A DNA stretch of 40,054 bases from Gemmatimonadota bacterium (lineage in GTDB: Bacteria > Gemmatimonadota > Gemmatimonadetes > Gemmatimonadales > GWC2-71-9), in assembly GCA_003221045.1 (NCBI GenBank), contig QHUC01000003.1, positions 1 to 40,054 of the forward strand, in the 5' to 3' direction. Both the position numbers and the translations under genes were made by a program. Below are positions 568-34,614 of this stretch, piece by piece. The notes below the pieces were generated by a model, which worked only from the letters and a program-made list of their open reading frames with translations, was not told where the DNA came from and did no database searches. Within the stretch, counting starts at the first letter, position 1; each line of letters begins with the position of its first letter.

Positions 568-582
568 TGGCATCGGCTTTGC
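568..582 (+). promoter_or_regulatory. Putative sigma-54 (RpoN) -24/-12 promoter
   Basis: TGGCAT-CGGCT-TTGC, with GG-N10-GC spacing, 62 nt upstream of the ATG at 644. Confidence 0.6.
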
Positions 583-643
583 GTTCCCGGCCCTCTGGTC
601 AGCACCGGCTGCAATCGTCAACAGCGAGGAGGGCAGAACGCAC

Positions 644-2210: not shown

Positions 2211-2330
2211 GTGCAAAGCGTAACACGCTGACGCATCAAACTGTATCACCAACGCCATATCCGCCGTTGCTCCGCATTGTCAACTCGTTGCAGAATCGCT
2301 AGTTATCGCGCGACGCAGTAGGTAGCGACG

Positions 2331-2346
2331 TGGCACTAGCCTTGCT
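2331..2346 (+). promoter_or_regulatory. Sigma-54 (RpoN) -24/-12 promoter upstream of rsbR
   Basis: TGGCAC-TAGCC-TTGCT exactly matches consensus TGGCAC-N5-TTGC(A/T), GG-N10-GC spacing; 42 nt before the ATG at 2388. Confidence 0.8.
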
Positions 2347-2387
2347 GTTGCGCCGCAGCAACATTCAACACCCAAGGACTGCCCGCC

Positions 2388-3296
2388 ATGGCCGCCAAAG
2401 GGAAAGACCCGCAAGCGCCGCTGCCTGACTCCGTCGCGCAACCCGAGTCCACCGCCGCGCTGTTGCGGGAGCTGGTGGCCCTCCTGCGGCAAAACCGCAC
2501 CCAACTGCGTGAGGAATGGGCGCGGCGCATCACCCGGGCCCAGTTGCTCACGGCCATGACCGAAGAAGAAATCTTCGCGGAAGCCACCTCGGTGTACGAC
2601 AACTACGTCGAGGCGCTCGAGACCGGCACCTTCGAGGCCCTGCAAGCCTACGCCCGCAACCTGTCCGAGCGCATCATTCCGCGAGGCGTCGAGACGCACG
2701 AGGTGGTCGGGATCGTGTTGCTGCTGCGTGACGTGCTGGCCCGCTCGCTGTTCGGAAAGTACCACGAGGATTTCGACAAGCTCTACCGCATTCTCGACGC
2801 CTACGAGCCAGCGGCCAACCGGATCGCGAACACGGTGGCGGTCGGGTTCGTGCAGGAGCGCGAGCGTATCATCCGGCAGCAACAGGAAGCGATCCGGGAG
2901 CTGTCCACGCCGGTGCTCCAGGTGCGCGAGCGGCTCTTGATTCTGCCGATCATCGGCGTCATCGATCCCCAGCGGGCGCGCCAGCTGACCGAGCAGTTGT
3001 TGCGCGCGATTCGGACCAACCGTGCGAAGGTCGTCGTGATCGACATCACGGGCGTGGCGGCGATGGACTCGAACGTGGCGAACCACTTGGTGCAGACCGT
3101 CGAGGCATCCCGCCTGCTGGGCGCGACCGTGATCGTGACGGGCCTCTCGCCCGAGATCGCGCAGACCCTGGTGACGATCGGTGTCGATCTGAGCGAGATG
3201 GCAACGGTCGGCGATCTCCAGGGTGGTATCGAAGAGGCGGAGCGCCTGCTCGGCTACAAGGTGCTGCCGCTCGAAGAGGTGGCCCCAAAGGCGTGA
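2388..3296 (+). CDS. rsbR: RsbR-type stressosome scaffold (RsbRD-like N-terminal domain + STAS domain)
   Basis: N-terminal helical sensor region, then AIRELSTPVLQVRERLLILPIIGVID...VVVIDITGVAAMDSNVANHLVQTVEASRLLGATVIVTGLSPEIAQTLVTIGV, a canonical RsbR STAS domain. Confidence 0.85.
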   Translation: MAAKGKDPQAPLPDSVAQPESTAALLRELVALLRQNRTQLREEWARRITRAQLLTAMTEEEIFAEATSVYDNYVEALETGTFEALQAYARNLSERIIPRGVETHEVVGIVLLLRDVLARSLFGKYHEDFDKLYRILDAYEPAANRIANTVAVGFVQERERIIRQQQEAIRELSTPVLQVRERLLILPIIGVIDPQRARQLTEQLLRAIRTNRAKVVVIDITGVAAMDSNVANHLVQTVEASRLLGATVIVTGLSPEIAQTLVTIGVDLSEMATVGDLQGGIEEAERLLGYKVLPLEEVAPKA

Positions 3297-3327: not shown

Positions 3328-3720
3328 GTGGAAGTCCCGATCCTGAAGCAGGGCCACTACCTGATCGCGTCCATCCAGTCGGCGCTCACCGACGCCGATC
3401 TGTCGCAGCTGCGCGAGGCGTTGATCGAGCGGGTCGGGAAGTTCCGCGCCCGCGGCGTCATTGTCGACGTGACGGCGCTCGACGTGATGGACTCGTTCGC
3501 CGTCCGCACGCTGCGGGACATCGCCCACATGGCTCGCCTCCGCGGCGCGGAAACGGTGATCGTGGGCATTCAGCCCGAAGTGGCGTTCGCGATGGTGCAG
3601 CTCGGTCTCACGCTCAAGGGCGTGTCGACCGCGCTCGACCTCGAGGAAGGCCTCCTCTTCCTCGACCAGCAGGCGAAGCTCCGCATCGAGCGCGGGACGG
3701 GACGGATCGACCGTGGCTGA
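3328..3720 (+). CDS. rsbS: RsbS-type STAS-only stressosome antagonist
   Basis: GTG start; MEVPILKQGHYLIASIQ...GVIVDVTALDVMDSFAVRTLRDIAHMARLRGAETVIVGIQPEVAFAMVQLGL. The D-S-F motif carries the conserved phospho-acceptor serine. Confidence 0.85.
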   Translation: MEVPILKQGHYLIASIQSALTDADLSQLREALIERVGKFRARGVIVDVTALDVMDSFAVRTLRDIAHMARLRGAETVIVGIQPEVAFAMVQLGLTLKGVSTALDLEEGLLFLDQQAKLRIERGTGRIDRG

Positions 3721-4123
3721 CGAGCTGCGCATCGCGGTCACGGCCGACGTCGACGTGGTCACCGCCCGGCAGCGCGGGCGAGAGGTCGCGGCGCAGGCAG
3801 GTTTTTCGAGCGGCGATCAGACGGTCATCGCGGCGGCCATCTCCGAAGTCGCCCGCAACATTCTCAATTACGCGAAGCGCGGCGAAGTGCAGCTCAGTGT
3901 CGTGACCAACGGTGACCGCCAGGGCGTCATTATCGTGGCCCGTGATCAAGGGCCCGGGATTCCCGACGTCCAGCGCGCGCTCGAGGACGGCTATTCGACC
4001 TCGGGGGGCCTGGGCCTCGGTCTGCCGGGCGCCCGCCGCTTGATGGACGACTTCGACGTGACGTCGGCCGTCGGGAAGGGCACGACCGTGACAATGAAGA
4101 AATGGCGGCGCATGAATGCATGA
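3713..4123 (+). CDS. rsbT: RsbT-type switch kinase (GHKL serine/threonine kinase)
   Basis: N-box EVARNILNYAKRG, G1 DQGPGIPD, G2 GLGLGLPGARRLMDDF; overlaps the rsbS stop. Confidence 0.85.
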   Translation: MADELRIAVTADVDVVTARQRGREVAAQAGFSSGDQTVIAAAISEVARNILNYAKRGEVQLSVVTNGDRQGVIIVARDQGPGIPDVQRALEDGYSTSGGLGLGLPGARRLMDDFDVTSAVGKGTTVTMKKWRRMNA

Positions 4124-4753
4124 GGCGCCCGCCGATGCTGCCACTCTGTTGGATTGGGGCGTCGCGGCGGTCGCGCTCCCCGGAGAGGCGGAATCGGGCG
4201 ACCTCCACCTGGTCCGGTCGGTGGGGGGAGGCGTGCTGGTGGCGGTGGTGGACGGCCTGGGTCACGGCGCGGAGGCGGCGACGGCGGCGCGGTTGGCGAT
4301 CGCCGCGCTGGCGCGGCACGCGCACGAGTCCCCGCCGTCCCTGTTCGAGCGGACCCATCAGGCACTGAAGGGGACTCGGGGCGTCGTCATGAGCCTCGCG
4401 TTTTTCAAGCGCACCGACCCCTCTTTGACGTGGCTCGGCGTGGGCAACGTGGAGGGCCTCCTCGTACACGCCGTCGACGCGGCTCGCGCCGCCCGCGCGC
4501 GGAAGTCGCTCGTCACACGCGGCGGCATCGTCGGCTCGGAGCTTCCGCGCCTGCAAGCGGAGGTGTTACGCCTCACGGCCGGGGACACCCTCATCTTCGC
4601 CACCGACGGTATTCGGGAGGGTTTCGTAGACGGACTGCCGGCCGGTGCGACGCCGCAACAGCAGGCCGAGCATATTCTCGCTCGACATGGCAAGGGCACA
4701 GATGATGCGCTCGTCCTGGTGGCTCGGTATCGCGGCCAGAGCCGGACGGGCAG

Positions 4754-4757
<4 letters not shown>
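4116..4757 (+). CDS. rsbX: SpoIIE/RsbX-type PP2C serine phosphatase
   Basis: [34 protein letters not shown] motifs; overlaps rsbT; same order as the rsbR-S-T module. Confidence 0.75.
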
Positions 4758-6168
<1,411 letters not shown>

Positions 6169-6172
<4 letters not shown>

Positions 6173-7461
6173 CCGGCCCGCCGCCTGTCCGCGTCGAGAA
6201 AGCGCTCGCGCTGCTGCCGGAGCTCGAAGCGCTCGACCCGCTGCGGGCCCTGCTGGTCTCGATCGCGCGGCCGGATGCGCACGCGCTGTGGTCGAGCTCC
6301 GGTCCGTACCTCACCCTGGGGAAACGGGGCGTGCAGCCGGACGAGCTGCGACGGCGCATGCCTCAGGCCTTTCATCGCATCACGGGGCACCTGCAGGCAC
6401 TGTACCGGGAGTATGTGGACGCGCTCGAGTGTCAGCAGGCGGCGGACCCCGCGGGGGTGGTGGGGGCGCTGTTGCGCGGCGGACGCCTCGAGGAGCGGGT
6501 GGCCCGGTTCACACAGGCGCGCGCCTGGTACGCGGTCGCGCTCGCCGTCGCGGAGGCACTGCAAGACCGCCGGCCCGAGGTGGAGACGCTGCGTGCCATC
6601 GGCTACGTGTGCATGGCGCTCGGGCAATACGCCGAGGCTGCCCGGCACTTCCAGCGCTCACTGGCGCTGGCCGAGGCGGAGTTCGACCAGGGCGGAGCGA
6701 CCGGGGCATGCGAAGGCTTGGCGGACGCGGCGCTCGCCCAGGGCCAGTGGTCGGGCGCGCACGCGTGGTACAGCCGCGGGCTGCGTCTGGCTGAAGCCGC
6801 GGACGACGCCGTGCGCGCCGGACGACTGCAGTGCCAGCTCGGCGTCGTCGCGCGCCATCAGGGCGATCTTTCGGCCGCGGGCGAGTTTCTGCGCGAGGCC
6901 CGCGAGCGCCTCGAGTCCGCCGGCGTCGCGGACGAGATGGCGCGCGTGCTGAACGAGCAGGGACGGCTGGACGCCCAGCTCGGTCGTCACGACGCCGCGT
7001 CCGCGGCGTACCGGGAGGCGCTGGCGTGGGCGCAACGGACTCCCGGCGACGCGGGCGACGAGCTGTCGATCCGTCTGAACTTAGCGGAGCTCGATCTCGA
7101 CGCCGGACGCCTGGTGGAAGCCGAGGCGGAGCTGCGGCGCGCCGAGCAGGTGGCCATCGGCGGCGATCTCATGCTTCGGCTGGCGCAGGTCTATGTCCTG
7201 ATGGGCCGGTTGCGCGGCGCGCAGGAGGACGAGACGGGGTTCGTCTTCTTCGAACAGGCGATCGAGCTCGCGACGGCTCTGGACCGCTCCGCGGCGACGC
7301 GGGCGCACGTGTTCTTCGAGTACGGCCTGTTCCGCAATCGGCTCGGGCAGCGGGATGAGGCGCGCGCCTACCTCGAGCAGGCCCGCGAGCTATTCGCCTC
7401 GCTCGGGGAAACGGCCGAGCGCGAGCGGGCCGACGCGGAGCTGCGCGCGCTCACGGCCTAG
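6169..7461 (+). CDS. Tetratricopeptide repeat protein
   Basis: Multiple TPR-like units ([45 protein letters not shown]). GTG start overlaps the activator stop (GTGA). Confidence 0.7.
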
Positions 7462-19888: not shown

Positions 19889-20031
19889 AGCGGCTCCTCG
19901 GGGTGGTTGAGCTTCGAAAAAGCTACGGCGGTGTAAGGGCGGTCGCGAGGTATAGGGCGCAGCATGCTGCCGCGCCTCGCCGACGCCCGGTCGGCTGCGT
20001 AGCTTTCCCGCAGCTGCAAAGGGGAGAAACA

Positions 20032-21390
20032 GTGACGCTGAACCGCTATCCACACGGCCACGTCTTCTACCGGAAGCTCGGCAAGAGCTACCCGCGCGTC
20101 GTGCGGGGCGAAGGCTGCTGGCTGTTCGACGACACTGGGAAGGCGTACCTCGACGCCGTCGGGGGCGCCTACGTCGCGAACCTCGGCCATTCGAACCCCG
20201 AGATTGCGGACGCCCTGGCCCGCCAGGCCCGCGAGTTCGGCTACCTGTCGGCTACCGCCTTCACCCACGGCCCGGTGGAAGAGCTCGCCGGCGAGCTCGC
20301 CGAGACGCTCCCGGGGGACTTGAACAAGCTCTATTTCCTCTCCAGCGGCTCGGAGGCGGTCGAGGCCGCCCTGAAGCTCGCGCGGCAGTACTGGATCGAG
20401 GCAGGCAAGCCCTCGAAACACCGCATCATCGCCCTCAATCCCTCATATCACGGCAATACGCTGCTTGCGCTGTCGGCGTCGGCGCGCGAGCAGTACCGAC
20501 TGCCGTTCCGTGAGTGGCTCGTGGACGTGGAGCGGATTCCGGCCCCATACGCCTATCGATGCGCCTGCCGGGGCGATGACCCCACGTGCCCCACGTGCAG
20601 TGGCGCCGCGCTCGAGGCTCAGATCCAGCGGCTGGGCGCCGACACCGTCGCCGCGTTCATCGCGGAGCCCGTGGGCGGCTCGTCCACGGGGGCATCCACG
20701 CCCCGCCCCGACTACTTTCGTACGATCCGCGAGATCTGCGATCGCCACCAGGTCCTGTTCGTGGCCGACGAGATTCTGTGCGGGGCGGGTCGCACCGGCA
20801 CATGGTGGGCCGTCGAGCCGTATGGCGTGGTCCCCGACCTGATGGTGGTGGGCAAAGGAATCTCGGGTGGCTACGCCCCACTGTCGGCGGTGGCCGCGCC
20901 GGAACGGATCGTCGACGTGATCGCCGAGGGCTCGGGCAGCTTCCTCCACGCGCAGACGTTCTCCTTTCATCCCGTGTCGTGCGCGGCCGGGCTGGCCGCC
21001 GTGCGCGTGCTCAAGCGCGAGCGCCTCGTGGAGCGGTGCGCCAAGCTCGGGGTCACCTTGCAGCGGCGCCTGGCGACACTCATGGACCTGCCGCACGTGG
21101 GCGATGTGCGCGGGCGTGGGCTCCTTGCCGGGATCGAGTTTGTCGAAGACAAGGGCACGCGGGCGCCCTTCCTGCGCGCCGCGAAATTCGTCGAGGCGTT
21201 CACCGAGGCGGCCCAGGAGGCCGGCCTCATCGTCTGGCCCAACGTCGGGCACGCGGATGGCGTGAATGGTGACCTCGTGGTGGTGGCGCCACCGTTCGTG
21301 GTCACGGAGCAGGAGATCGACCAGATCGTGACCCGATTCAAGACCGCTCACGCCGCGGCGTTGAAGGCGGTCAAGGTAGGCGCGCGGTGA
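20032..21390 (+). CDS. Class-III PLP-dependent aminotransferase
   Basis: GTG start after GGGGAG; YFLSSGSEAVEAALKLARQY, VADEILCGAGRTG, VVGKGISGGYAPLSAV. Confidence 0.88.
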   Translation: MTLNRYPHGHVFYRKLGKSYPRVVRGEGCWLFDDTGKAYLDAVGGAYVANLGHSNPEIADALARQAREFGYLSATAFTHGPVEELAGELAETLPGDLNKLYFLSSGSEAVEAALKLARQYWIEAGKPSKHRIIALNPSYHGNTLLALSASAREQYRLPFREWLVDVERIPAPYAYRCACRGDDPTCPTCSGAALEAQIQRLGADTVAAFIAEPVGGSSTGASTPRPDYFRTIREICDRHQVLFVADEILCGAGRTGTWWAVEPYGVVPDLMVVGKGISGGYAPLSAVAAPERIVDVIAEGSGSFLHAQTFSFHPVSCAAGLAAVRVLKRERLVERCAKLGVTLQRRLATLMDLPHVGDVRGRGLLAGIEFVEDKGTRAPFLRAAKFVEAFTEAAQEAGLIVWPNVGHADGVNGDLVVVAPPFVVTEQEIDQIVTRFKTAHAAALKAVKVGAR

Positions 21391-21395
21391 GACCC

Positions 21396-22982
21396 ATGAC
21401 CACTACGGCGCCGACCGCATCCAAGGTCACCTACACCTCCGCCGACGTCGACTGGGAGTCGTTCCATCGCCAGTTCGACGAGGCGCTGGCCCGCATTCGG
21501 GGAAGACTCGGTGGCAACCATCCGTTGCACATCGGGAAGGATGCGATCCCTTCGGGCGGCCCACCGATCGTGGCCACCTCGCCGATCGATACCAGCGTGA
21601 TGCTCGGACGGTTCGCCACGGCCACGCCTGAGCAGGTGGGGCGGGCGGTGTCCACGGCCAAGGCCGCGCAACGCGCGTGGGCACGGCTGCCGTGGAGCAA
21701 GCGGGTGGCCACGCTCCGCCGGGCAGCCGGTCTGATCCGTGACCGCAAGTTCGAGCTCGCCGCCATTATGAGCCTCGAGGTCGGGAAGAGCCGGCTCGAG
21801 TCCATGGGGGACGCCGAGGAGTCGGCGGACCTGATCGAGTACTACTGCAAGCAGGTGGAGGACGCGGGCGGGTTCATCCGGTCGATGGCGCGGGTGACCG
21901 CGGCCGAGCGTAACACGGATATGCTGCGTCCTTATGGGGTCTTCGCCTGTATCGCGCCGTTCAACTTCCCGCTCGCCCTCTCGACCGGAATGTCCGCGGC
22001 GGCCCTCGTCGCCGGGAACACCGTGGTCTACAAGCCCGCCGAGGACACGCCGTGGACCGGGCTCAAGCTGTTCGAGGTGTACCGCGACGCTGGCGTGCCG
22101 GCCGGCGCCTTCAACTATATCCCGGGCACGGGCGAGGTCACGGGCGAGGCGCTATGGCGCCATCCCGGCGTGGACGGCGTGGTGTTCACCGGCTCCCAGG
22201 CCGTGGGGATGCGTATTTATCACGGCCTGTCCCATCAGTGGGTGAAGCCCTGCCTGCTCGAGATGGGCGGTAAGAACGCGACGATCGTGCTCGACACGGC
22301 CGATCTCGACGCCGCGGCCGAGGGCGTGACGCGATCGGCGTTCGGCCTCCAGAACCAGAAGTGCAGCGCCACCTCGCGGGTGTACGTGCACACGGGCGTG
22401 GCGCGGCCGTTCCTCGAGCAGCTCGTCGAGAAGACCCAAGCCCTGAAGATGGGCGATCCGACGGAGCGCGACGTGTATTTCGGTCCGGTGATCAACGCTG
22501 CGGCGGTGGAGCGCTTCGAGCAGGCGGCGTCGCAGGCGCGCCGCGAAGGGGCGATGCTGCTGGGGGGCGACCGCCTCCGCGGTGGAGTGTTCGATCGCGG
22601 CCACTTCGTCGCGCCCACGATCGCGCGGCTACCGCTCTCGTCGACGCTCTTCCTCGAGGAGCTGTTCGTGCCGCTGCTCGCTGTGGGCGAGGTGACGGAG
22701 CTCGACCAGGCGATCGCCGAAACCAACAAGGCGCAGTACGGGCTCACCGCGGGAATCTTCTCGAAGAAGCCAGAGGAGATCGAGCGCTTTTTCGACGAGG
22801 TCGAGGCCGGGGTGTGCTACGTGAACAAGCGCACCGGCGCGACGACCGGCGCGTGGCCGGGCGCGCAGCCGTTCACCGGCTGGAAAGGCTCGGGCTCGAC
22901 GGGGAAGGGTGGCTGCGGGCCGTACTACGTCGCGCAGTTCCTGAGGGAGCAGAGCCGAACCGTGATCGAGGAGGCGCGATGA
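21396..22982 (+). CDS. Aldehyde dehydrogenase family (L-glutamate gamma-semialdehyde/1-pyrroline-5-carboxylate dehydrogenase-like)
   Basis: IAPFNFPLALSTGMSAAALVAGNTVVYKPAEDTP, VFTGSQAVG, LEMGGKNATIVLDTADLD, QNQKCSATSRVYV. An in-frame GTG at 21387 is an alternative start. Confidence 0.88.
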   Translation: MTTTAPTASKVTYTSADVDWESFHRQFDEALARIRGRLGGNHPLHIGKDAIPSGGPPIVATSPIDTSVMLGRFATATPEQVGRAVSTAKAAQRAWARLPWSKRVATLRRAAGLIRDRKFELAAIMSLEVGKSRLESMGDAEESADLIEYYCKQVEDAGGFIRSMARVTAAERNTDMLRPYGVFACIAPFNFPLALSTGMSAAALVAGNTVVYKPAEDTPWTGLKLFEVYRDAGVPAGAFNYIPGTGEVTGEALWRHPGVDGVVFTGSQAVGMRIYHGLSHQWVKPCLLEMGGKNATIVLDTADLDAAAEGVTRSAFGLQNQKCSATSRVYVHTGVARPFLEQLVEKTQALKMGDPTERDVYFGPVINAAAVERFEQAASQARREGAMLLGGDRLRGGVFDRGHFVAPTIARLPLSSTLFLEELFVPLLAVGEVTELDQAIAETNKAQYGLTAGIFSKKPEEIERFFDEVEAGVCYVNKRTGATTGAWPGAQPFTGWKGSGSTGKGGCGPYYVAQFLREQSRTVIEEAR

Positions 22983-24310
22983 CGCGCGACTATCCCCGGA
23001 TCGTTGTACCGCCGCCCGGTCCCAAGGCGAGGGCGATCGTTGAGCGCCAGGAGCGCTGGGCTTCGACCTCGTATCCCAAGGAATATCCGCTCGCCATCGC
23101 GCGCGGAGAGCGTGCCATGGTGGAGGACGTGGACGGGAACCGCTACCTCGACTTCATGGCGGGCATCGCGGTCGCCTCGACCGGGTACGGCCATCCCAAG
23201 GTGATCAAGGCGATCCAGGAAGCGGCGGGCCGGTTCCTGCACATCTGCGGCAGCGACTTCTACTTCGAGAGCTTCGCCGCCCTGTGCGAGCGGCTGGCCC
23301 AGCTCGCTCCGGGCAAAAGCAAGAAGCGCGTGTTTCTGTCGAACTCGGGCACGGAGGCGGTTGAGGGGGCGATCAAGCTGGTGCGGCAGTCCACGGGGCG
23401 ACCCGCGATCATCGCGTTCAGCGGCGCCTTCCATGGCCGCACCTACGGCGGGTTGAGCCTCACCGCGAGCAAGTCGATCCAGCGAGCGGGCTTCGCGCCC
23501 TTTCTCCCCGAGGTCTATCACGTCCCCTACGGCTACCGCTATCGCTGCGACTTCTGTCGCGGCGAGCCGGCGTGCACCATGCGTTGCGTCTCATCCATCG
23601 AGGATGGCCTGTTCGCCACGCGGCTCGATCCCCAGAGCGTGGCCGCGGTGTTCGTGGAGCCGATCCAGGGAGAAGGTGGCTACGTGGTGCCGCCGCCCGG
23701 CTACCTGAAGGCACTGCGCGAGCTGTGCGATCGCTATGGGATCCTGCTCGTCTGTGACGAGGTGCAGTGCGGCGTGGGTCGGACGGGCAAGATGTGGGCC
23801 TGCGAGCACGAGGGGATCGAGCCCGACGTTCTGCTCACGGCCAAGGGGCTCGGGAGCGGCATGCCGATCGGCGCAATCATCGCCCGCGAGTCGATCATGA
23901 AGTGGCGACCCGGGGCGCACGGCTCCACGTTCGGTGGGAACCCGGTGTGCTGCGCGGCCGCGCTCGCCACGCTCGAGGTGGTGGAGCACGAGCTGCTGCC
24001 CAACCTGCCAAAGACGGGAGCCCGGCTCTTGGCGGGCGCGGAGCGGCTGCAGCAGAAGTATGCGTCGATCGGGGACGTGCGGGGCCGAGGCCTGATGATC
24101 GGCATCGAGTTCGTGAAGGACCGCGCCACGCGTGAGCCCGCGCCGGAGATCCCTCACGAGCTCGTCGAGCGCGCGTTCCGCAAAGGCGTGCTCCTCTTGG
24201 GCGCGGGAAAGAGCACGCTGCGGCTGGCGCCACCGCTCGTCGTGGACGACTACGATGTGGATGCCGCACTGCGCATCATCGACGAGTGTCTTCACGAAAT
24301 GACGGATTAA
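22979..24310 (+). CDS. Class-III PLP-dependent aminotransferase (4-aminobutyrate aminotransferase-like)
   Basis: VFLSNSGTEAVEGAIKLVRQSTGRPAIIAFSGAFHGRTYGGLSLTASK, VEPIQGEGGYVVPP, CDEVQCGVGRTGKMWACEHEGIEPDVLLTAKGLGSGMPIGA. Confidence 0.9.
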   Translation: MTRDYPRIVVPPPGPKARAIVERQERWASTSYPKEYPLAIARGERAMVEDVDGNRYLDFMAGIAVASTGYGHPKVIKAIQEAAGRFLHICGSDFYFESFAALCERLAQLAPGKSKKRVFLSNSGTEAVEGAIKLVRQSTGRPAIIAFSGAFHGRTYGGLSLTASKSIQRAGFAPFLPEVYHVPYGYRYRCDFCRGEPACTMRCVSSIEDGLFATRLDPQSVAAVFVEPIQGEGGYVVPPPGYLKALRELCDRYGILLVCDEVQCGVGRTGKMWACEHEGIEPDVLLTAKGLGSGMPIGAIIARESIMKWRPGAHGSTFGGNPVCCAAALATLEVVEHELLPNLPKTGARLLAGAERLQQKYASIGDVRGRGLMIGIEFVKDRATREPAPEIPHELVERAFRKGVLLLGAGKSTLRLAPPLVVDDYDVDAALRIIDECLHEMTD

Positions 24311-24322
24311 GCGTCCTCCGTC

Positions 24323-25237
24323 ATGGGTGACGCCTCCAAGGTCCTCTCCATGCGCGAGGCGGTCTCGCGTTTTGTCCGCGACGGCGACACGGTCGTCATC
24401 GAAGGCTTCACCCACCTCATCTGCTTCGCCGCCGGTCACGAGATCATCCGCCAGGGACGCCGCAACCTCACCCTGGCCCGCCTTACGCCGGACCTGATCT
24501 ACGATCAGCTCATCGCCGCGGGCTGCGCGCGGAAGCTCGTGTTCTCGTGGGCGGGGAATCCGGGGGTTGGATCGCTGCATGCGTTCCGGCGCGCCGTGGA
24601 GGGCAAGGAGGCTTCCGCCCTCGAGATCGAGGAATATTCGCACTTTGGGATGGTCGCACGCTTCTCGGCCGGCGCCGCGCGGTTGCCGTTCTGGCCGCTC
24701 CGGAACTATTCCGGCACGGACCTGCCGCGCGCCAATCCGCGCATCAAGGCCGTCCTGTGCCCCTATACCGGCGAGACGCTCGCGGCCGTTCCGGCGCTGA
24801 ACCCCGACGTGGCGATCGTGCACGCGCAGCGGGCCGACGCGGCGGGCAACGCGCAGATGTGGGGGCTCGTCGGCGTCCAGAAGGAAGCAGCCTTCGCGTC
24901 GGCGCGCGTGATCGTGGTCGTGGAAGAGCTCGTCGATGAGTCGGTCATCCGATCCGATCCCAACCGCACCGTGATCCCGGGGATGATCGTGAGTGCGGTG
25001 GTCGTCGAGCCGTGGGGGGCGCATCCGTCGTATGCCCAAGGCTACTACGATCGCGACAACGATTTCTACGTAGCCTGGGAGGCGATCTCGCGAGACACCG
25101 CGAAGGTGGGCAGGTACTTGGACGAGTTCGTCTACGGCGTGCCCGATCGCGCGGCATATCTGGCGAAGCAGCCTCAATTAGCCGCAAGGCTCAAGGCCAA
25201 AGAACGCCGGTCGAGTGGGGTCAACTACGGCTTCTAA
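24323..25237 (+). CDS. CoA-transferase subunit A (glutaconate/3-oxoacid CoA-transferase alpha-like)
   Basis: DGDTVVIEGFTHLICFAAGHEIIRQGRRNLTLARLTPDLIYDQLIAAG; paired with subunit B. Confidence 0.85.
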   Translation: MGDASKVLSMREAVSRFVRDGDTVVIEGFTHLICFAAGHEIIRQGRRNLTLARLTPDLIYDQLIAAGCARKLVFSWAGNPGVGSLHAFRRAVEGKEASALEIEEYSHFGMVARFSAGAARLPFWPLRNYSGTDLPRANPRIKAVLCPYTGETLAAVPALNPDVAIVHAQRADAAGNAQMWGLVGVQKEAAFASARVIVVVEELVDESVIRSDPNRTVIPGMIVSAVVVEPWGAHPSYAQGYYDRDNDFYVAWEAISRDTAKVGRYLDEFVYGVPDRAAYLAKQPQLAARLKAKERRSSGVNYGF

Positions 25238-26024
25238 CGCCGCCTATACGCCGGACGAGATGATGGCGGCCGTCGCGGCACGCGAGCTGCGCGATGGCGA
25301 GGTCGTCTTCGTCGGCATCGGCCTCCCGAATCTCGCGTGCAACCTCGCCCGCGCCACGCACGCGCTTAACCTCGTCCTGATCTACGAATCGGGTGCCGTC
25401 GGAGCGGTGCCGGAACGCCTGCCGGTGTCCATCGGCGACCCGGCGCTCGTGACGGGATCCCTCATGGTGTGCGGCATGGCGGATGTGTTCCAGCTGTTCC
25501 TCCAGAGCGGAAGGATCGAAGTCGGCTTCCTGGGCGGCGCCCAGGTGGACCGCTACGGCAACATCAACACAACCGTAATCGGCCCGTACGAGCGGCCCGC
25601 CGTACGCCTGCCGGGGTCCGGCGGGGCCGCGGAGATCGCGGTCCACGCGCAGCGCACGCTGATCGTCGCCAAGCTCAACGCTCGGGCGTTTCCCGAGCGT
25701 GTGGATTTCGTGACGAGCCCGGGTCAGCGCTCCGGCGGCCGGACCCGCCGCGAGCTGGGACTCCCGGGCGCGGGACCGGTGAAGGTGATTACCGACAAGG
25801 GGATCCTCGAAGCGGACCGGGCGACCGGAGAGATGACGCTCGCGGCGCTCTACCCGGGTGTTTCGGTGGATGACGTACAAGCCGGCGTCGGGTGGCCGCT
25901 GGCGCGTCGCGAGGTCCTCGGGACCGTCACGCCCCCCAGCGAAACCGACCTTCACCTGCTGCGGGAGGTCCTCGACCCGAAGCGGCTCTATCTGAGATCG
26001 AAGGGCGACGGAAAGACGGAATGA
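25215..26024 (+). CDS. CoA-transferase subunit B
   Basis: VFVGIGLPNLACNLARATHALNLVLIYESGAVGA (active-site Glu motif); FLGGAQVDRYGNINTTVIG; overlaps subunit A. Confidence 0.87.
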   Translation: MGSTTASNAAYTPDEMMAAVAARELRDGEVVFVGIGLPNLACNLARATHALNLVLIYESGAVGAVPERLPVSIGDPALVTGSLMVCGMADVFQLFLQSGRIEVGFLGGAQVDRYGNINTTVIGPYERPAVRLPGSGGAAEIAVHAQRTLIVAKLNARAFPERVDFVTSPGQRSGGRTRRELGLPGAGPVKVITDKGILEADRATGEMTLAALYPGVSVDDVQAGVGWPLARREVLGTVTPPSETDLHLLREVLDPKRLYLRSKGDGKTE

Positions 26025-26034
26025 CGGAATGACG
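26007..26034. repeat. Octanucleotide tandem repeat across the stop/start junction
   Basis: GACGGAAA GACGGAAT GACGGAAT GACG: three full units plus a partial fourth. Confidence 0.7.
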
Positions 26035-28581
26035 AGGCGACACGCCCTCTTTCTTGTTGCTCTGTGGTCGGCCGCCGGCGGCATCCGGAGCGCCCTCGCG
26101 CAGCGCGAGCCGGTGCTGAAGCAGGTCGCCGTGCCGCACGCCTACTACTGGCGCGAGATGTACGTCCCACAGGTGACGAGCGGCCCGAGTGCGGTTACCT
26201 GGTCACCCGACGGCACGGAGCTGATCTACTCGATGCAGGGCTCGTTATGGCGGCAGCGGATCGGCTCCCGCGTGGCCGTGCAGCTCACCGGCGAGTTCGG
26301 ATACGACTACCAGCCCGACTGGTCGCCCGACGGCCGATTCGTGGTGTTCGCACGCTATGCACACGACGCGATCGAGCTCGAGCTCTTGGACCTCGCTTCG
26401 AAGACCGTGCGGGCGGCCACGGCCAACGGGGCCGTCAACGTCGAGCCGCGCTGGTCGCCCGATGGGAGCCGCATCGCGTTCGTCTCATCGACCTTCAACG
26501 GCCGCTGGCACCTCTTCACGCTCGCAACGGAGGACGGCGTCCCGGGGGCGGTCACGCAGCTGACCGAAGACAACGACAGCAAGCTTCCGCGCTACTACTA
26601 CAGCACGTGGGACCACTACCTCTCACCCACGTGGTCGCCGGACGGGCGCGAGCTCATCCTCATCTCGAACCGCGGACACATCCATGGCACGGGGGGGATG
26701 TGGCGCATGACCGCCACGCCCGGAGCGCCGCTCCGCGAGATCCGCTACGAAGAGACTACCTGGAAGGCGCGGCCCGACTGGTCTCCCGACGGTACACGCG
26801 TGGTGTACAGCTCGTACCTCGGCCGCCAGTGGCATCAGCTCTGGCTCATGACGAGCGAGGGCGGGGATCCGTTCCCGTTGACCTACGGGGAGTTCGACGC
26901 TACGGCGCCGCGCTGGTCCCACGACGGCAAGCACATCGCGTACGTGTCGAACGAGTCGGGGAATACGTCGCTCTGGGTGATCGACGTACCGGGCGCGCGC
27001 CGGCGCGAGGTCGTGCCTACCGACCGCCGGTATCATGAGTCCGTCGGGCGGCTACGCATCGCGATGGTGGACGTCGCAGGACACCCACTCGCCGCCCGCC
27101 TGTCGGTGACCGGCCCCGACGGGCGGGGCTATGCCCCAGACGACGCGTGGCGCCACGCGGACGAGGCGTTCGATCGCTCGGAGCGCCGGTTCGAGGTCAC
27201 GTATTTCCACACGGGTGGAGTGGCCGAGCTGACCGTGCCCACGGGCAGTGTGGCGCTAGAGGCCTGGCACGGACCGGAATACCGGGTCGCGCGAGCGGTC
27301 GTCCAGGTGCAGACCGGGAGGACGGTGACCAAGCGGCTCGTGCTCGAGCGTCTGGCGAACCTGTCCGCCGAGGGATGGTGGAGTGGCGATCTCCACGTGC
27401 ACATGAATTACGGTGGGGCGTACCGCAACACGCCACCGCACCTCGCGTTCCAGGCGCGGGCGGAGGATCTGCACGTGGTCGAGAACCTGATCGTCAATAA
27501 GGAGCAGCGAATCCCCGACATCGCGTACTTCCGCACCGACGCCGATCCGGTGTCGGGCCCCGGCTTCCTGCTCATGCACGGTCAGGAGTACCACACCAGC
27601 TACTGGGGCCACACGGCATTCCTCGGCCTCACCGACCACTATCTCCTCCCCGAGTACGCCGCATATCCGAACACGGCGGCGGCGAGCCTGTACCCCGCGA
27701 ACGCCGATGTGGGCGACCTGGCTCATGCGCAGGGGGCCCTGTTCGGGTACGTACACCCGTTCGATGCGCGGCCCGATCCGAGCGACACGACTGCCCCGCT
27801 CACCTACGAGCTTCCCGTCGACGCGGCGCTCGGTAAGGTGGATTACGTGGAAGTGACGGGGTACTCGGACCATCTCATCACCTCAGCCATCTGGTACCGC
27901 CTGTTGAACTGTGGCTTTCGCCTGCCCGCGGGAGCGGGGACCGACGCGTTCCCGAACTTCGCTTCGCTACGCGGTCCACCGGGATTGGTGCGCGTATTCG
28001 CGCACGCGGGCCCGAAGCTCGATCACCGTCACTGGCTGGCGGCGATCAAGGCGGGCCGGACGTTCGTCTCGAACGCGCCGCTGCTCGAGTTCACGCTCGC
28101 GGGACGCGCGATCGGCGACGAGATCCGGTTGCCGGCGGGCGGGGGTCGGCTCACCGCGCGGGTGCGGCTGCGCTCGAGCGTGCCGGTGGATCACCTGGAG
28201 GTGATCGGGAACGGCCGCGTGGTCGCGACGATCACGCTCCGCGGCGACCGTACGGCGGCGACGGGCAGCGTGGCGATTCCCGTCGCGCACAGTGGCTGGT
28301 ACGTCCTGCGCGCGTGGAGCGAGCGAGCGGAGCAGCCGGTGCTCGATCTCTATCCGTTCGCCTCCACGAGCCCGATTTACGTGCGGGTAGGTCGCGAGCC
28401 GGTGCGTTCGGCCGAGGATGCGGAGTTCTTCCTCAAGTGGCTCGACCGGTTGCAGCAGTCGACGGAGGCGCACGAGGGATGGAGGACGCCGGCCGAGCGG
28501 GAGCACGTCATCGGGCTGATCGACCGCGCGCGGTCGGTGTACATGGGGCAGATGAGCGCCACCCGCGCCAGATCAGAATAG
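26029..28581 (+). CDS. TolB/PD40 beta-propeller fused to CehA/McbA-family metallohydrolase (PHP-like)
   Basis: Repeats such as DWSPDGRFVVFARYA and RWSPDGSRIAFVSS; then GWWSGDLHVHMNYGG, HGQEYHTSYWGHTAFLGL, GYVHPFDA, AGTDAFPNF. Confidence 0.85.
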   Translation: MTRRHALFLVALWSAAGGIRSALAQREPVLKQVAVPHAYYWREMYVPQVTSGPSAVTWSPDGTELIYSMQGSLWRQRIGSRVAVQLTGEFGYDYQPDWSPDGRFVVFARYAHDAIELELLDLASKTVRAATANGAVNVEPRWSPDGSRIAFVSSTFNGRWHLFTLATEDGVPGAVTQLTEDNDSKLPRYYYSTWDHYLSPTWSPDGRELILISNRGHIHGTGGMWRMTATPGAPLREIRYEETTWKARPDWSPDGTRVVYSSYLGRQWHQLWLMTSEGGDPFPLTYGEFDATAPRWSHDGKHIAYVSNESGNTSLWVIDVPGARRREVVPTDRRYHESVGRLRIAMVDVAGHPLAARLSVTGPDGRGYAPDDAWRHADEAFDRSERRFEVTYFHTGGVAELTVPTGSVALEAWHGPEYRVARAVVQVQTGRTVTKRLVLERLANLSAEGWWSGDLHVHMNYGGAYRNTPPHLAFQARAEDLHVVENLIVNKEQRIPDIAYFRTDADPVSGPGFLLMHGQEYHTSYWGHTAFLGLTDHYLLPEYAAYPNTAAASLYPANADVGDLAHAQGALFGYVHPFDARPDPSDTTAPLTYELPVDAALGKVDYVEVTGYSDHLITSAIWYRLLNCGFRLPAGAGTDAFPNFASLRGPPGLVRVFAHAGPKLDHRHWLAAIKAGRTFVSNAPLLEFTLAGRAIGDEIRLPAGGGRLTARVRLRSSVPVDHLEVIGNGRVVATITLRGDRTAATGSVAIPVAHSGWYVLRAWSERAEQPVLDLYPFASTSPIYVRVGREPVRSAEDAEFFLKWLDRLQQSTEAHEGWRTPAEREHVIGLIDRARSVYMGQMSATRARSE

Positions 28582-28582
28582 A

Positions 28583-30268
28583 TCAGCGCGTGACCGTAAT
28601 CTCGCGCCGTGCCATGACCCGGTCTCCTTCAGCGGGTGAAACGGCAACCTCGATCACATAGCGGCCGGAAGCCAGATCCGAGAGGTCGACCACCAACGAG
28701 CGGGGCGTCACCGGGCCCGGCTGGGGAACCTCGTCCCATTCCAGACGCACGTTCTTGTGCGGACCGACGAGCCCGAGCGACTGCACGGCGCGACGCAGCC
28801 AGCCTCCACCCTCGCGCGTAACGGTGAGGGCCATCGTAACCGCGGCTTCACCGGAGCCGACCCCGTACAGCTCCCAGAACACGCCGACCCGGTGCGGCGC
28901 GGAGAAGCGCGTCGCTCCGTAAGCCCGGGGAATCACCGCCGACAGGTTGTCCGGCACGGAGTCCGGTGGATCGAACAGCAGCAGATCCGAAATCTCGACC
29001 TGATTGGGCCGTGCCGACGGCGTCACGCCGTACCGGGCCCGGGCGACGTGCTTCTCGCGGGGTGCGAGCGCTTCGAGCGAGAGGACGAACGGTTGGCACG
29101 GTGCGGTCGCGGTCAGGGCCCGGGTGCCCCTCACGACCCCCGAGTCGCGGGAGAGGGCGACCGTCTGCTCGTCCGCGGCGAGCACGAGCGCGCCCGTGAC
29201 CGAGGCGCCGGCGAACAACGTGTCGCCGGACAGGTCGTAAGCACCCACCACGACACAGGAGTCTGCGCGTCGGAAGACCGCCGCCTGGTGGTCGAGCTCC
29301 ACGAACGCCCGCGCGTAGGCGGGAGCGTACCGTTCGCGGGCGCGCCGTGGGTCGAGGACCCAATCCTCCGGCCGCGCGCCACCGGGGTCATCGAACGCCT
29401 GCATGGTCGCTCCGAAGTGAAGGCTCGGCGACGGTTCGTGGCCGGCGATGCGCGGCTCCGATGGCACGAGCTCCGATCTCGGCGGCTCGCGCGTCCAATA
29501 CGTCGCCCATCCGTAACGCACCAGGAGATCCCGCAGGTCGTCCCCCCAGTAGAGACCAAAGGTCGTGCGGGCTTCCCGCTCGATGCGGGCGAACGTGCGG
29601 CGCGCGAGGTGCTCGGTCCGGCGGTCGTTCCCACCGAGCGAATAGAGTGGCCGCGTGAGCCACCACCAGCGCGCGGCGAACGTCTCGCGCCCCGCGCAAT
29701 CCAGACGGCGGTACCGCTTGGCCAACTCACCTTCGAGCAGCGGCGAGATATCCGTCCAGCCGCACCGCTCATCCTCGGGCATGTCCCGGAGCGCCGCAGT
29801 GAACGTACTGTCGGCGCCGGCGAAATCGCCCGCCGCGTGCCGTGCCATCCCGCCCAGCGCCTCGCACCACCAGGTCGTCGCGCGGCATGCCGTCGCCACG
29901 TGGACGGCGGCATCGAACGCCTGGTGCTCTATCAGGTACCGGACGCGCTGGCCGGCGATCCACTCGTCGCCGGGCAACGCCACACTCGCGTCCGCGAGCG
30001 TTGCGAGGAGCCTGACGCGCGCCTCACGGATCCTGGGGGGCTCCTCCGGGGCGGTATCGAGGCCGCCTTCGTACCAGTAGCACATTCGCCCGATGCGCTC
30101 GTCGCACCTGTCGCTTGCGAACGCGGGTTGCACAGGGAGGTTTGCCCGTCGGGTAGCTTCGAAGGTCTGCTGGGCGCGTCGGGCGGCCTTGAGCAGGGCG
30201 AGGGAGTCCGTCCCGTGGCCTCGCCACGGGCCGCCGAGCAGCCAGAAGAGAGGAAGGATGCCCACCAT
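28583..30268 (-). CDS. Hypothetical secreted protein
   Basis: Long coding-like frame with hydrophobic leader MVGILPLFWLLGG; GDDLRDLLVRYGWATYWTREP motif. Family not confidently recognised. Confidence 0.65.
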   Translation of the reverse strand: MVGILPLFWLLGGPWRGHGTDSLALLKAARRAQQTFEATRRANLPVQPAFASDRCDERIGRMCYWYEGGLDTAPEEPPRIREARVRLLATLADASVALPGDEWIAGQRVRYLIEHQAFDAAVHVATACRATTWWCEALGGMARHAAGDFAGADSTFTAALRDMPEDERCGWTDISPLLEGELAKRYRRLDCAGRETFAARWWWLTRPLYSLGGNDRRTEHLARRTFARIEREARTTFGLYWGDDLRDLLVRYGWATYWTREPPRSELVPSEPRIAGHEPSPSLHFGATMQAFDDPGGARPEDWVLDPRRARERYAPAYARAFVELDHQAAVFRRADSCVVVGAYDLSGDTLFAGASVTGALVLAADEQTVALSRDSGVVRGTRALTATAPCQPFVLSLEALAPREKHVARARYGVTPSARPNQVEISDLLLFDPPDSVPDNLSAVIPRAYGATRFSAPHRVGVFWELYGVGSGEAAVTMALTVTREGGGWLRRAVQSLGLVGPHKNVRLEWDEVPQPGPVTPRSLVVDLSDLASGRYVIEVAVSPAEGDRVMARREITVTR

Positions 30269-30349
30269 AATATTCCTCACCAAATCATACGCCCGTCCCC
30301 GGCTGCACGCGAGCTTGACGCCACCGGGGCGAGGCGTAATGTCGGCGCG

Positions 30350-31918
30350 ATGCTCCCCCGCGACTGGAACGCCGGCCACTGGTTCGTCGACCGCCACGTC
30401 GACGAGGGCCGGGAGGGCTGCCTCGCGATCCTGTACGAGGGCCGGCGCCTGACCTATGGGGACGTGTACGCCGGTGCAAACCGGCTCGGCAACGCCCTTC
30501 GCCGCCTCGGGGTGGGGATGGAGCAGCGCGTGGCCCTGTTGCTGCACGATTCGCCCGAGTTCGTGTGGAGCTTTTGGGGCGCGCTCAAGATCGGAGCCGT
30601 TCCGATCCCGACCAACACGCTGCTCAAGCCCCACGATCTGGAATACATCCTCCGCGACAGCCGGGCGGCGGTGGTCATCGCGAGCGAGCCGCTCGTGCCC
30701 GCCATCGAGGTAGTCCGGCCGCGGGTACCGGGTCTCACGAACGTCGTGGTCGCCGGGAAGGCGTCGGCCGGCCAGCTGTCGTACGCCGAGCTGGTGGGGA
30801 GCGAGAGCGCGGACTTGGCGCCCGCGGCGACCACCAGGGACGACGTGGCGTTCTGGCTGTATACGTCGGGCACCACCGGGACGCCCAAGGCGGCGGTCCA
30901 CCTGCAGCACGACATGCTCGTCTGTTGTGAGGGGTTCGGGAAACACGTGCTCGAGATCGGGCCGGAAGACCGGACCTTTTCGGTGGCGAAGCTCTTCTTC
31001 GCCTACGGCCTGGGGAACGCGCTCTACTTCCCGTTTCACGTGGGCGCGTCGACGGTGCTCTATCCCGGCCGGCCCGAGCCGGCAAGAGTGTTCGACGTTA
31101 TCACGCGCGAGCGCCCGACCATCTTCTATGCCGTTCCCACCGCGTACGCCGCGATGCTGCAGGTTCCCGACGCCGACCGCCTGTACGACCTGCGCTCGGT
31201 CCGCGTGTGTAGCTCGGCCGGGGAGCCGCTGCCGAAGGCGATCTACGAGCGGTGGCTCGAGCGGTTCGGGATCGAGATCCTCGACGGGATCGGGTCGACG
31301 GAGATGTGCCATACGTTCATCGCGAACCGGCGCGGCCACGCCCGTCCGGGCTCGAGTGGGACCCTCGTCCCGGGGTACGATGCGCGCCTCGTGGACGACG
31401 AAGGACGGGACGTGCCCGTGGGAGAAGTGGGTAACCTGCTCGTGAAGGGTGACAGCGCTTGTTCCTGCTATTGGAACCAGCACGAGCGCACCGTGCAGAC
31501 CATCCAAGGCGAGTGGGTGCGCACGGGTGACAAGTACCATCGGGACACGGATGGCTACTTCTGGTACGCTGGCCGGAGCGACGACATGATCAAGGCGAGT
31601 GGGATGTGGGTGTCACCCGCCGAGGTGGAGGGGGCGCTCACCGAGCACCCTGCGGTGGTCGAGGCCGGCGTCGTGGGCGCGGAGGACAAGGATGAGCTGG
31701 TCAAGCCGCTGGCATTCGTGGTGCTGGCCCGCGGAAACGCGCCGAGCCCCGCCCTAGAGAGTGAGCTGAAAGCGTTCGTCAAGAATCGGCTCGCGCCGTA
31801 CAAGTACCCGCGGTGGATCATGTTCGTCGATGAGCTGCCGAAGACGGCGACGGGAAAAATCCAACGGTTCAAACTCAGGGAAATAGCAAGAGAGACGGGT
31901 AGGAAAAGCAAAAGCTAG
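30350..31918 (+). CDS. Benzoate-CoA ligase-family acyl-CoA synthetase
   Basis: YTSGTTGTPKAAVHLQHDMLVC, FFAYGLGNALYFPFHVGASTVLYPGRPEP, GIGSTEMCHTFIANRRG, TGDKYHRDTDGYFWYAGRSDDMIKASGMWVSPAEVE, PKTATGKIQRFKLR. Confidence 0.9.
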   Translation: MLPRDWNAGHWFVDRHVDEGREGCLAILYEGRRLTYGDVYAGANRLGNALRRLGVGMEQRVALLLHDSPEFVWSFWGALKIGAVPIPTNTLLKPHDLEYILRDSRAAVVIASEPLVPAIEVVRPRVPGLTNVVVAGKASAGQLSYAELVGSESADLAPAATTRDDVAFWLYTSGTTGTPKAAVHLQHDMLVCCEGFGKHVLEIGPEDRTFSVAKLFFAYGLGNALYFPFHVGASTVLYPGRPEPARVFDVITRERPTIFYAVPTAYAAMLQVPDADRLYDLRSVRVCSSAGEPLPKAIYERWLERFGIEILDGIGSTEMCHTFIANRRGHARPGSSGTLVPGYDARLVDDEGRDVPVGEVGNLLVKGDSACSCYWNQHERTVQTIQGEWVRTGDKYHRDTDGYFWYAGRSDDMIKASGMWVSPAEVEGALTEHPAVVEAGVVGAEDKDELVKPLAFVVLARGNAPSPALESELKAFVKNRLAPYKYPRWIMFVDELPKTATGKIQRFKLREIARETGRKSKS

Positions 31919-32042
31919 ACGCGCAGACGCACAGCGGTGAACAGTGAGCCGGGATGGTGAACGGTGAGGAGGAATGAGGAGAAGCACTTTAGGGGAGCAG
32001 GCGCATACCAGGGGAGGCATCTGGAAGGTTCATGTTTCGGTT

Positions 32043-32392
32043 GCCCCACCCTCAGGGGTGGGGCCATGGTGAGCTTCCTGATTTCTGATGTACGCGATAA
32101 CGCGCCTCTCGCATAGATGTGAACATGGTCCCGCCATCCACCCACCGCGAGGACCATGGCTCCTTTTCGCTTGGCGATCGCGGCGAGACAGCGATATAGA
32201 CGTTCCTGCCACGCGAAGGCGATCCATCGTTGGCGCCGGTACGTGCTCCACACGAGGTGGACCCGCACCCACAAGAAGGTGTGACGCACACTCCCATCCT
32301 ACCGGATCGCCGCGAGTGGAGCGGATCGGTTTCACGCAGCCGGGACCCGAAGATCGCGATCCGGACATGGCCCCGCCCGTCAGGCGGGGCCA
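32043..32392 (-). mobile_element. Decayed IS200/IS605-like (Y1/HUH transposase) element with end hairpins
   Basis: Hairpins GCCCCACCC-TCAG-GGGTGGGGC (32043-32064) and TGGCCCCGCC-CGTCA-GGCGGGGCCA (32368-32392) bracket a minus-strand frame with Y1-transposase N-terminal motifs. Confidence 0.65.
32066..32289 (-). pseudogene. Truncated IS200-like Y1 transposase
   Basis: FLWVRVHLVWSTYRRQRWI...RLYRCLAAIAKRKGAMVLAVGGWRDHVHIYAR contains the HUH motif (HVH); the C-terminal catalytic-Tyr region is missing. The open frame runs on to 31915. Confidence 0.65.
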
Positions 32393-32543
32393 ATTGAGAA
32401 CCGATGCAATTGGATGAATCGTGGCCGACACATCTCGGGGAACAGTGAGCCGGGATCAGGTAGTCTTCCTGACTCCTGCTCACCGTCACCCCTGTGCGTC
32501 TGCTGCGTCTAGCAGTTGCAGGTCCTGCCTGTCCGATCCGTGT

Positions 32544-33305
32544 CTACCGTATGAGTAGAAGTGAAACGTCGTACAACGCATGTGTCCACGCCGTGATCCC
32601 AAACCCCCGGGTGAGGTAGAGCGCCGAGAAAAACAGCCCCGCCACCATGCGGAACACGAACGAGTAGACCTGCAGTCGGTCCCCGTAAGGGCCGATATAA
32701 TGAAAGGCCGAGAAGATGGCCGCGCCCAGGAGCGTGGCCACCACGCCGGCCGTCAGCGGACGCCAGCCGAGCAGCGCGCGGGCGCCGGCCGAGATCGCGC
32801 CCACCAGCAGCACCCGGAAAAGGAGCTCCTCGTAGATCCCGGCCCCGAGGGAAACCATCAAGTGAGTCCATGAGTCGAGACCGCCGCCAGCACCTGCTCC
32901 GATAGAGAGCATCTGGAGCAGGCCCAGCACGCCGGACGTGACGCTGCCGACGCACAGGCCGAACACCAGGGCGAGACCGACCGACTCGGCGAGCATCGTG
33001 AAGAACACGCCGCCCTTCAGGCGCGACCCGTGAGCTCCCATGTCGCGGACCACGAGCCACAGCCCAACGCCGATCAGACAGAGCATGAAGAGCGGCGGCC
33101 CCCACGCGCCGGCCACTGCGGTGAACAGGGCCTGCAGAATCACATCGGCGCCGTTCCGCACCGAGCGCGGGCCGTGCGCGAGCAGCACGGCGAGGATCTG
33201 GTAAAAAACGAGGAGAGGGAGCGCCAACAGCAGGCTGTAGCGCGGCGCGCGGCTCAGCTGCCAATAGGAACGGGCGGACGCGGAGGGAAAGACGGTGCCG
33301 GTCAT
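32544..33305 (-). CDS. CPBP-family intramembrane glutamic endopeptidase
   Basis: Polytopic hydrophobic protein with GIYEELLFRVLLV (EExxxR), IFSAFHYIG and WTHALYD motifs. Confidence 0.85.
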   Translation of the reverse strand: MTGTVFPSASARSYWQLSRAPRYSLLLALPLLVFYQILAVLLAHGPRSVRNGADVILQALFTAVAGAWGPPLFMLCLIGVGLWLVVRDMGAHGSRLKGGVFFTMLAESVGLALVFGLCVGSVTSGVLGLLQMLSIGAGAGGGLDSWTHLMVSLGAGIYEELLFRVLLVGAISAGARALLGWRPLTAGVVATLLGAAIFSAFHYIGPYGDRLQVYSFVFRMVAGLFFSALYLTRGFGITAWTHALYDVSLLLIR

Positions 33306-33432
33306 AGGGGCAGGAATCTAGCGTGGATCGTCGAGGGGTCTACGTAATGCCGCCCCTTCGTTCTTCACGTTCTTGCCACCCCTCCCGTCGGCTCGTATCC
33401 TACCGGACCCACGCCCCCACGCCCGGTGGCTC

Positions 33433-34614
33433 ATGAAGCTCGCCCTGTTCGTCGCCTGTCTCATCGTCGCGCCCCCCTCCGGCGCCGCCGCGCAGAAGCC
33501 CGAGCGCGCCCGCGATTTGGGCGTCCCCTTCGAGGGCACCCCGGGCCCGCTCGATGCCATCACGGACGTCGGGGGCGTCGAGGTCGGTCACCGCACCCTC
33601 ATCGTGGGGAGCGGCAAGCTGGTCGTGGGCAAGGGGCCCGTTCGGACCGGCGTGACCGCGGTGTTTCCCCGCGGCAAGGGCTCCGACGACCCCGTGTTCG
33701 CCGGGTGGTTCACGATGAATGGCAACGGCGAGATGACCGGGACGACCTGGGTCGAAGAATCGGGATTTCTGTGGGGGCCGGTGCTGATCACCAATACGCA
33801 CTCGGTTGGAGTGGTGCGGGACGCGGTGATCGAGTGGATCGTCGGCAAGGGCCGCATGCACAGCGACGAGTGGTCGCTTCCCGTCGTCGCCGAGACCTGG
33901 GATGGTGGCCTCAACGACATCAACGGCTTCCATGTCACCAAGCAGGATGCCTGGGCCGCGATGGACAGCGCGCGTGGGGGGCCGGTGGCCGAAGGCAGCA
34001 TCGGGGGCGGCACCGGCATGGTGTGCAACCGCTTCAAGGGCGGGATCGGTACCGCGTCGCGGCGCGTTCCGGGAGAGGGCTACACGGTCGGTGTGTTGGT
34101 GCAATGCAACTACGGCGGCCGCGCCCCGCTGCGCATCGCCGGCGTACCGGTTGGCCGCGAGATCACCGATTTGCTGCCCTGCCGAGCTCCGTGTGGTGGC
34201 ACGCGCAGTGATGCGAACGCGCGGCTCGCACAAGATCTGGGCTCCATCATTATCGTCGTGGGCACCGACGCGCCGCTCCTCCCGCACCAGCTCAAGCGGA
34301 TCGCGCGGCGGGCAGTGCTCGGCGTCGGCCGGTTGGGCGGGCTGGCGTCGAATTCCTCCGGTGACATCTTTATCGCGTTCTCGACCGCCAATCCCCAGGC
34401 ATCGCGCGATACCGGCCTGGCCCGCGTGACGATGGTCGCGAACGATCAGATCACCCCGTTGTTCGAGGCGACGATCCAGGCCACCGAAGAGGCGATCGTC
34501 AACGCCATGGTCGCCGCCCGTACGATGACCGGCGCCGACGACCTCACCGTGTACGCCCTTCCGCACGACCGGCTGCGGGAGATCCTCAAGAAATACAACC
34601 GGCTGAATCCGTGA
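33433..34614 (+). CDS. P1-family peptidase (DmpA / beta-aminopeptidase-like), secreted
   Basis: Signal peptide to AAAQ; PGPLDAITDVGGVEVGHRTL, SIGGGTGMVCNRFKGGIGTASR, LASNSSGDIFIAFSTAN (autocatalytic Ser region). Confidence 0.9.
   Translation: MKLALFVACLIVAPPSGAAAQKPERARDLGVPFEGTPGPLDAITDVGGVEVGHRTLIVGSGKLVVGKGPVRTGVTAVFPRGKGSDDPVFAGWFTMNGNGEMTGTTWVEESGFLWGPVLITNTHSVGVVRDAVIEWIVGKGRMHSDEWSLPVVAETWDGGLNDINGFHVTKQDAWAAMDSARGGPVAEGSIGGGTGMVCNRFKGGIGTASRRVPGEGYTVGVLVQCNYGGRAPLRIAGVPVGREITDLLPCRAPCGGTRSDANARLAQDLGSIIIVVGTDAPLLPHQLKRIARRAVLGVGRLGGLASNSSGDIFIAFSTANPQASRDTGLARVTMVANDQITPLFEATIQATEEAIVNAMVAARTMTGADDLTVYALPHDRLREILKKYNRLNP

Follow-up and report, generated by a model that had tools for sequence, protein, structure and literature searches.

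Sequence match and conservation confirm the motif at 2331-2346 as the predicted sigma-54 promoter of a six-gene operon, rsbR-rsbS-rsbT-rsbX-EBP-TPR, in which stressosome genes are combined with the gene of a sigma-54 activator of the enhancer-binding protein (EBP) type (Table 1). We propose, with a probability of about 0.6, that the EBP activates this promoter from a dyad at -90, brakes it from a second copy of the dyad at the transcription start, is controlled by RsbT and also controls a DUF4402 operon. Binding of the EBP to the dyads, the sign of each site and the control by RsbT are what we infer from the arrangement of sites and genes.

Table 1. Features of the analysed DNA, in order of position
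Feature	Positions	Strand	Characteristics
Second -24/-12-like site, TGGCAT-CGGCT-TTGCG	568..583	+	counterparts before matching genes in L160, L162, L166 and L168
Upstream degenerate dyad copy	2242..2259		-90 from GG, fixed position; proposed EBP enhancer site
Sigma-54 promoter	2331..2346	+	-24 TGGCAC, -12 TTGC; match and conservation in 18/18 orthologous loci
Start-site dyad, TGTTGC-N6-GCAACA	2346..2363		abuts the -12 element; perfect arms in 16/18 loci; proposed operator (brake)
rsbR	2388..3296	+	RsbRD_N and STAS; RsbRD_N match just below the cut-off
rsbS	3328..3720	+	STAS; start codon chosen with the help of an alignment
rsbT	3713..4123	+	HATPase kinase domain
rsbX-like SpoIIE phosphatase	4116..4757	+	domain match
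Sigma-54 activator (EBP)	4754..6172	+	pseudo-receiver, AAA+ with GAFTGA, Fis-type HTH
TPR protein	6169..7461	+	domain match

The promoter and its conservation

The site reads TGGCAC-TAGCC-TTGCT on the forward strand, with the GG (2332-2333) and the GC (2344-2345) 10 bases apart; direct inspection bore out the sequence, coordinates, strand and GG-N10-GC spacing given in the original prediction. The accompanying claim that the consensus is matched in every conserved position held for the TGGCAC/TTGC core, but a T replaces the G that follows CAC in the consensus TGGCACG-N4-TTGC(T/A) (PMC9765219). The motif is separated by 41 bases from the ATG of rsbR, and the position of the -24 and -12 elements predicts a transcription start around 2357. 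It is the sole sigma-54 site with 0 mismatches in the window, that is, the whole stretch of 40,054 nucleotides analysed. The host, which among named relatives is closest to soil Gemmatimonadetes MAGs, is represented by a draft genome of 2.81 Mb (85% complete). This genome contains rpoN, on whose presence the prediction depended, and encodes nine strong Sigma54_activat proteins.

Counts of the bare motif were rejected as proof of a promoter. The genome contains five exact TGGCAY-N5-TTGCW sites, about the chance number by our own uniform-composition estimate for 2.8 Mb, and sites with at most one mismatch showed no excess genome-wide (66 versus 134 in a reversed-pattern control). The case must therefore rest on position and conservation. 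If the count were all there was to consider, the match could be a functionless product of chance; we consider this practically negligible, because every orthologous locus keeps the motif amid diverged flanks and the motif is absent where the operon has no EBP.

The promoter was found at the same place in all 18 orthologous operons of the EBP group (17 genomes). The distance from the first base of the block GGCAY-TA-N3-TTGC to rsbR is 53 to 73 nt (134 nt in L170), and the core of the block is strictly kept. Averaged over the 12 relatives that align without indels, with the window as the reference, identity was 0.98 in the 14-bp core, versus 0.39 in the 5′ flank and 0.57 at the fourfold sites of rsbR. 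In 17 of these loci the contig that carries the promoter also carries the EBP gene; in G021 the latter is on another contig. At eight loci of a sister genus (RsbR 84-91% identical) the promoter is absent and the upstream gene is different; no EBP is present in these operons as far as their downstream regions can be seen (in G002 the contig ends too early). Five more distant operons devoid of EBP likewise have no such promoter. The promoter and the operon EBP occur together across genera. In the sister genus, g3 (L171-L178), rsbR comes directly after a GGDEF/diguanylate-cyclase-like gene, and the operon has lost its EBP.

The operon and its activator

RsbR, RsbS and RsbT are encoded together, as STAS, STAS and HATPase proteins in that order, with an RsbX-like phosphatase, a gene content typical of a stressosome. 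The sigma-54 activator expected in the operon is encoded by the fifth gene. Its product has an AAA+ Sigma54_activat domain with GAFTGA and a C-terminal Fis-type HTH, as an enhancer-binding protein should, and both the GAFTGA and the ATPase motifs are intact. The AlphaFold model of the whole EBP is poor (mean pLDDT 51), the N-terminal domain alone being usable; this domain adopts a receiver fold (residues 24-147, pLDDT mostly around 80). None of 15 orthologues gave a Response_reg match, and no aspartate occupies the phospho-acceptor position, which sets the protein apart from NtrC-type response regulators. A receiver-like domain devoid of its phospho-acceptor makes control by a histidine kinase unlikely. 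A DNA-binding domain was recognised in no operon product other than the EBP; the TPR protein was rejected as a DNA binder because no HTH was found in it.

The EBP would probably be controlled by RsbT once the stressosome releases this kinase, possibly in concert with the TPR protein, and would then be the output of the stressosome. Two sister-genus genomes (G005 and G011; L327 and L328) have, besides a main stressosome operon without EBP, a distinct rsbT-EBP-TPR cluster where neither rsbR nor rsbS was found. A cluster of this composition fits RsbT as the direct partner of the EBP. In another genome, G026, the entire stressosome-EBP operon is present twice in diverged form (L155 and L156), either by real duplication or because strains were mixed. 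Elsewhere in the window, 19903-37072 is occupied by a catabolic run comprising class-III aminotransferases, an aldehyde dehydrogenase, two CoA-transferase subunits, an AMP-binding enzyme, a Rieske oxygenase and an amino-acid permease.

Dyads at the operon and DUF4402 promoters

The start-site dyad is 18 bp long and spans about -11 to +7, straddling the predicted start. Its six inner bases vary among loci while the arms stay, the exceptions being one mismatch in L168 and a paired change, TGTGG/CCACA, in L170. The recognition helix of the EBP is nearly invariant among orthologues; an altered helix accompanies the altered dyad of L170, and L169 has another helix variant, yet perfect dyads. Both L168 and L170 show the dyad displaced by 1 bp relative to the -12 element, indicating that it is a module separate from that element. 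Nearly every locus has a degenerate second copy some 90 bp upstream of the GG, where enhancers are commonly located. This copy has on average 3.4 mismatches (7.1 in shuffles), 4 in the window, and ranks first among about 120 positions in 15 of the 18 loci; it is perfect in L169 and poor in L166. The better kept of the two is the start-site copy.

The paired change of L170, which preserves the arms, could be read differently: the conserved block would be chiefly an RNA leader hairpin, UGUUGC-N6-GCAACA, transcribed from a start further upstream, and the -24/-12 match would be incidental. A sigma-70-like sequence, TTGTCA-N17-TAGTTA, is indeed present at 2277-2305; it was rejected, however, since it is not clearly conserved. 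Moreover, the -24/-12 bases are no less strictly conserved than the dyad, and the pairing of the two recurs at DUF4402 operons. We consider the leader hairpin very improbable.

In the model that we favour, the EBP would bind TGTTGC-N6-GCAACA at both places. From the -90 copy it would contact the sigma-54 RNA polymerase by looping and activate its own operon, and at the start-site copy it would obstruct the polymerase and so cap expression. The original prediction of positive autoregulation is thus upheld in that promoter and EBP co-occur and a dyad lies at an enhancer-like place, and has to be qualified in that the start-site dyad, where a bound protein would be in the way of the polymerase, hints at a negative arm as well. 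From the sequences, autoregulation of the operon is likely, and it probably has two signs. It weighs against this model that an activator would not usually act from a position on the start site. The intact GAFTGA and ATPase motifs and the co-occurrence of promoter and EBP would also suit an EBP that is purely an activator, as originally predicted, with the start-site dyad being an activator site or having no regulatory role. We find this unlikely, since that dyad overlaps the region which the polymerase must occupy and is the best kept of the two copies.

Searching 290 genomes of the order for the promoter-dyad composite, in exact or near-exact form, returned only the stressosome-EBP operon and a DUF4402 operon. 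In three congeners the same composite precedes the gene of a secreted DUF4402 (PF14352) protein. The locus has the look of a fimbrial-type operon; on inspection by eye, a chaperone-like protein and additional DUF4402 proteins are encoded there too. All 29 scorable genomes of the family have a -24/-12-like promoter before the DUF4402 gene (upstream regions L276-L305), and by this sequence criterion sigma-54 control of the DUF4402 fibres looks general in the family. All 8 genomes that possess the stressosome-EBP operon have a dyad with at most two mismatches overlapping the DUF4402 promoter, and none of the 21 that do not possess it has one (Fisher p 2e-7, uncorrected for shared descent, the EBP-bearing genomes being mutually related). 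The 21 genomes, among which G011 with its diverged rsbT-EBP-TPR cluster is counted, have at least 4 mismatches in their best dyad match at this promoter. The association is also seen within genus g4, where G015 and G016 have EBP and dyad, while G013 has neither a detectable EBP (genome 85% complete) nor the dyad.

The DUF4402 dyad starts between +2 and +11 after the C of the -12 element, depending on the genome, and in G001 it overlaps the -24 side. Such variable placement is more in keeping with an operator blocking the polymerase than with an activator site in fixed phase. Since the same dyad lies on the coexisting DUF4402 promoter, the stressosome would probably control surface fibres too, most likely by repression at this promoter. 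The DUF4402 gene was not found in the 85% complete assembly of the host itself; that the sole other dyad-bearing sigma-54 promoter found has no detected counterpart in this genome speaks against our model.

A dyad that overlaps the start at a variable distance from the -12 element is, on the other hand, typical of a repressor, and the DUF4402 promoters devoid of the dyad keep their -24/-12 elements, so that another EBP must serve them. The sigma-54 promoter could accordingly be real and the dyads be bound by some other, co-inherited repressor or activator, with the EBP acting elsewhere or from unrecognised sites. Although the foremost of the alternatives, this is still rather unlikely: the dyad tracks the stressosome-EBP operon and is found at an enhancer-like position too, and the EBP alone among the operon products has a recognised DNA-binding domain. 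Genomes that lack the stressosome-EBP operon, belonging to several genera of the family, contain longer palindromes, TGTTGCGT-N2-ACGCAACA, which are probably the site of another regulator.

Further targets of the EBP were sought around the remaining sites. The second -24/-12-like site of the window precedes two secreted-type genes, at 644-1351 (family unknown) and 1408-2124 (choice-of-anchor P, NF040603). Around -66 of it there are dyad-like sequences with 3-4 mismatches, which are only suggestive; the site is a possible further target of the EBP system. Among the exact dyads of EBP-bearing genomes outside the DUF4402 promoters, none of those examined lay on a plausible -24/-12 and most were inside open frames; these were rejected as targets, as were the near-exact dyads of the host genome. 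No convincing dyad was seen near those of the other exact -24/-12 sites of the host genome that were examined, and several gave nothing to score.

Known systems and possible meaning

The EBP shares with NtrC-family regulators the AAA+ domain with GAFTGA, the Fis HTH and a similarly built dyad. NtrC sites have the sequence TGCACC-N5-GGTGCA. The protein described here departs from that family in its half-site, in the lack of a working phospho-receiver and in having one dyad copy at the start site. The RsbR, RsbS, RsbT and RsbX modules are common to the sigma-B stressosome of Bacillus subtilis, whose output is RsbU-RsbV-RsbW and sigma-B, whereas such genes are absent from the present operon and the candidate output is the EBP. 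The stressosome operon of Vibrio vulnificus (PMC9237108) is similarly organised: it contains rsbR-rsbS-rsbT-rsbX but neither rsbU nor a sigma factor, and a presumed output module is co-transcribed behind these genes; the output genes there encode two-component proteins, in contrast to the sigma-54 EBP and TPR protein found here. Autoregulation of an EBP is already known, for example for nla28 (PMC9765219). The nla28S-nla28 operon of Myxococcus xanthus likewise includes the EBP gene and is preceded by a -24/-12 promoter and repeated EBP half-sites, but its input is a histidine kinase (PMC9765219), as opposed to a stressosome module, and the dyad copy on the start site distinguishes the present operon from it. 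No report of a stressosome with a sigma-54, RpoN, EBP or NtrC output was found in the titles and abstracts of the literature searched.

Few stressosome outputs are known beyond the sigma-B lineages, and the operon, its promoter and the candidate operator point to one: a sigma-54 activator, with the operon itself and the DUF4402 fimbriae as candidate targets. The start-site dyad could exemplify how a single activator restrains a sigma-54 promoter by means of a second binding site of the same kind. More tentatively, at somewhat less than even odds, an EBP output independent of phosphorylation, dyads of opposite sign and a fimbrial operator gained or lost with the operon would together mean that in these bacteria stress sensing is coupled to surface fibres.
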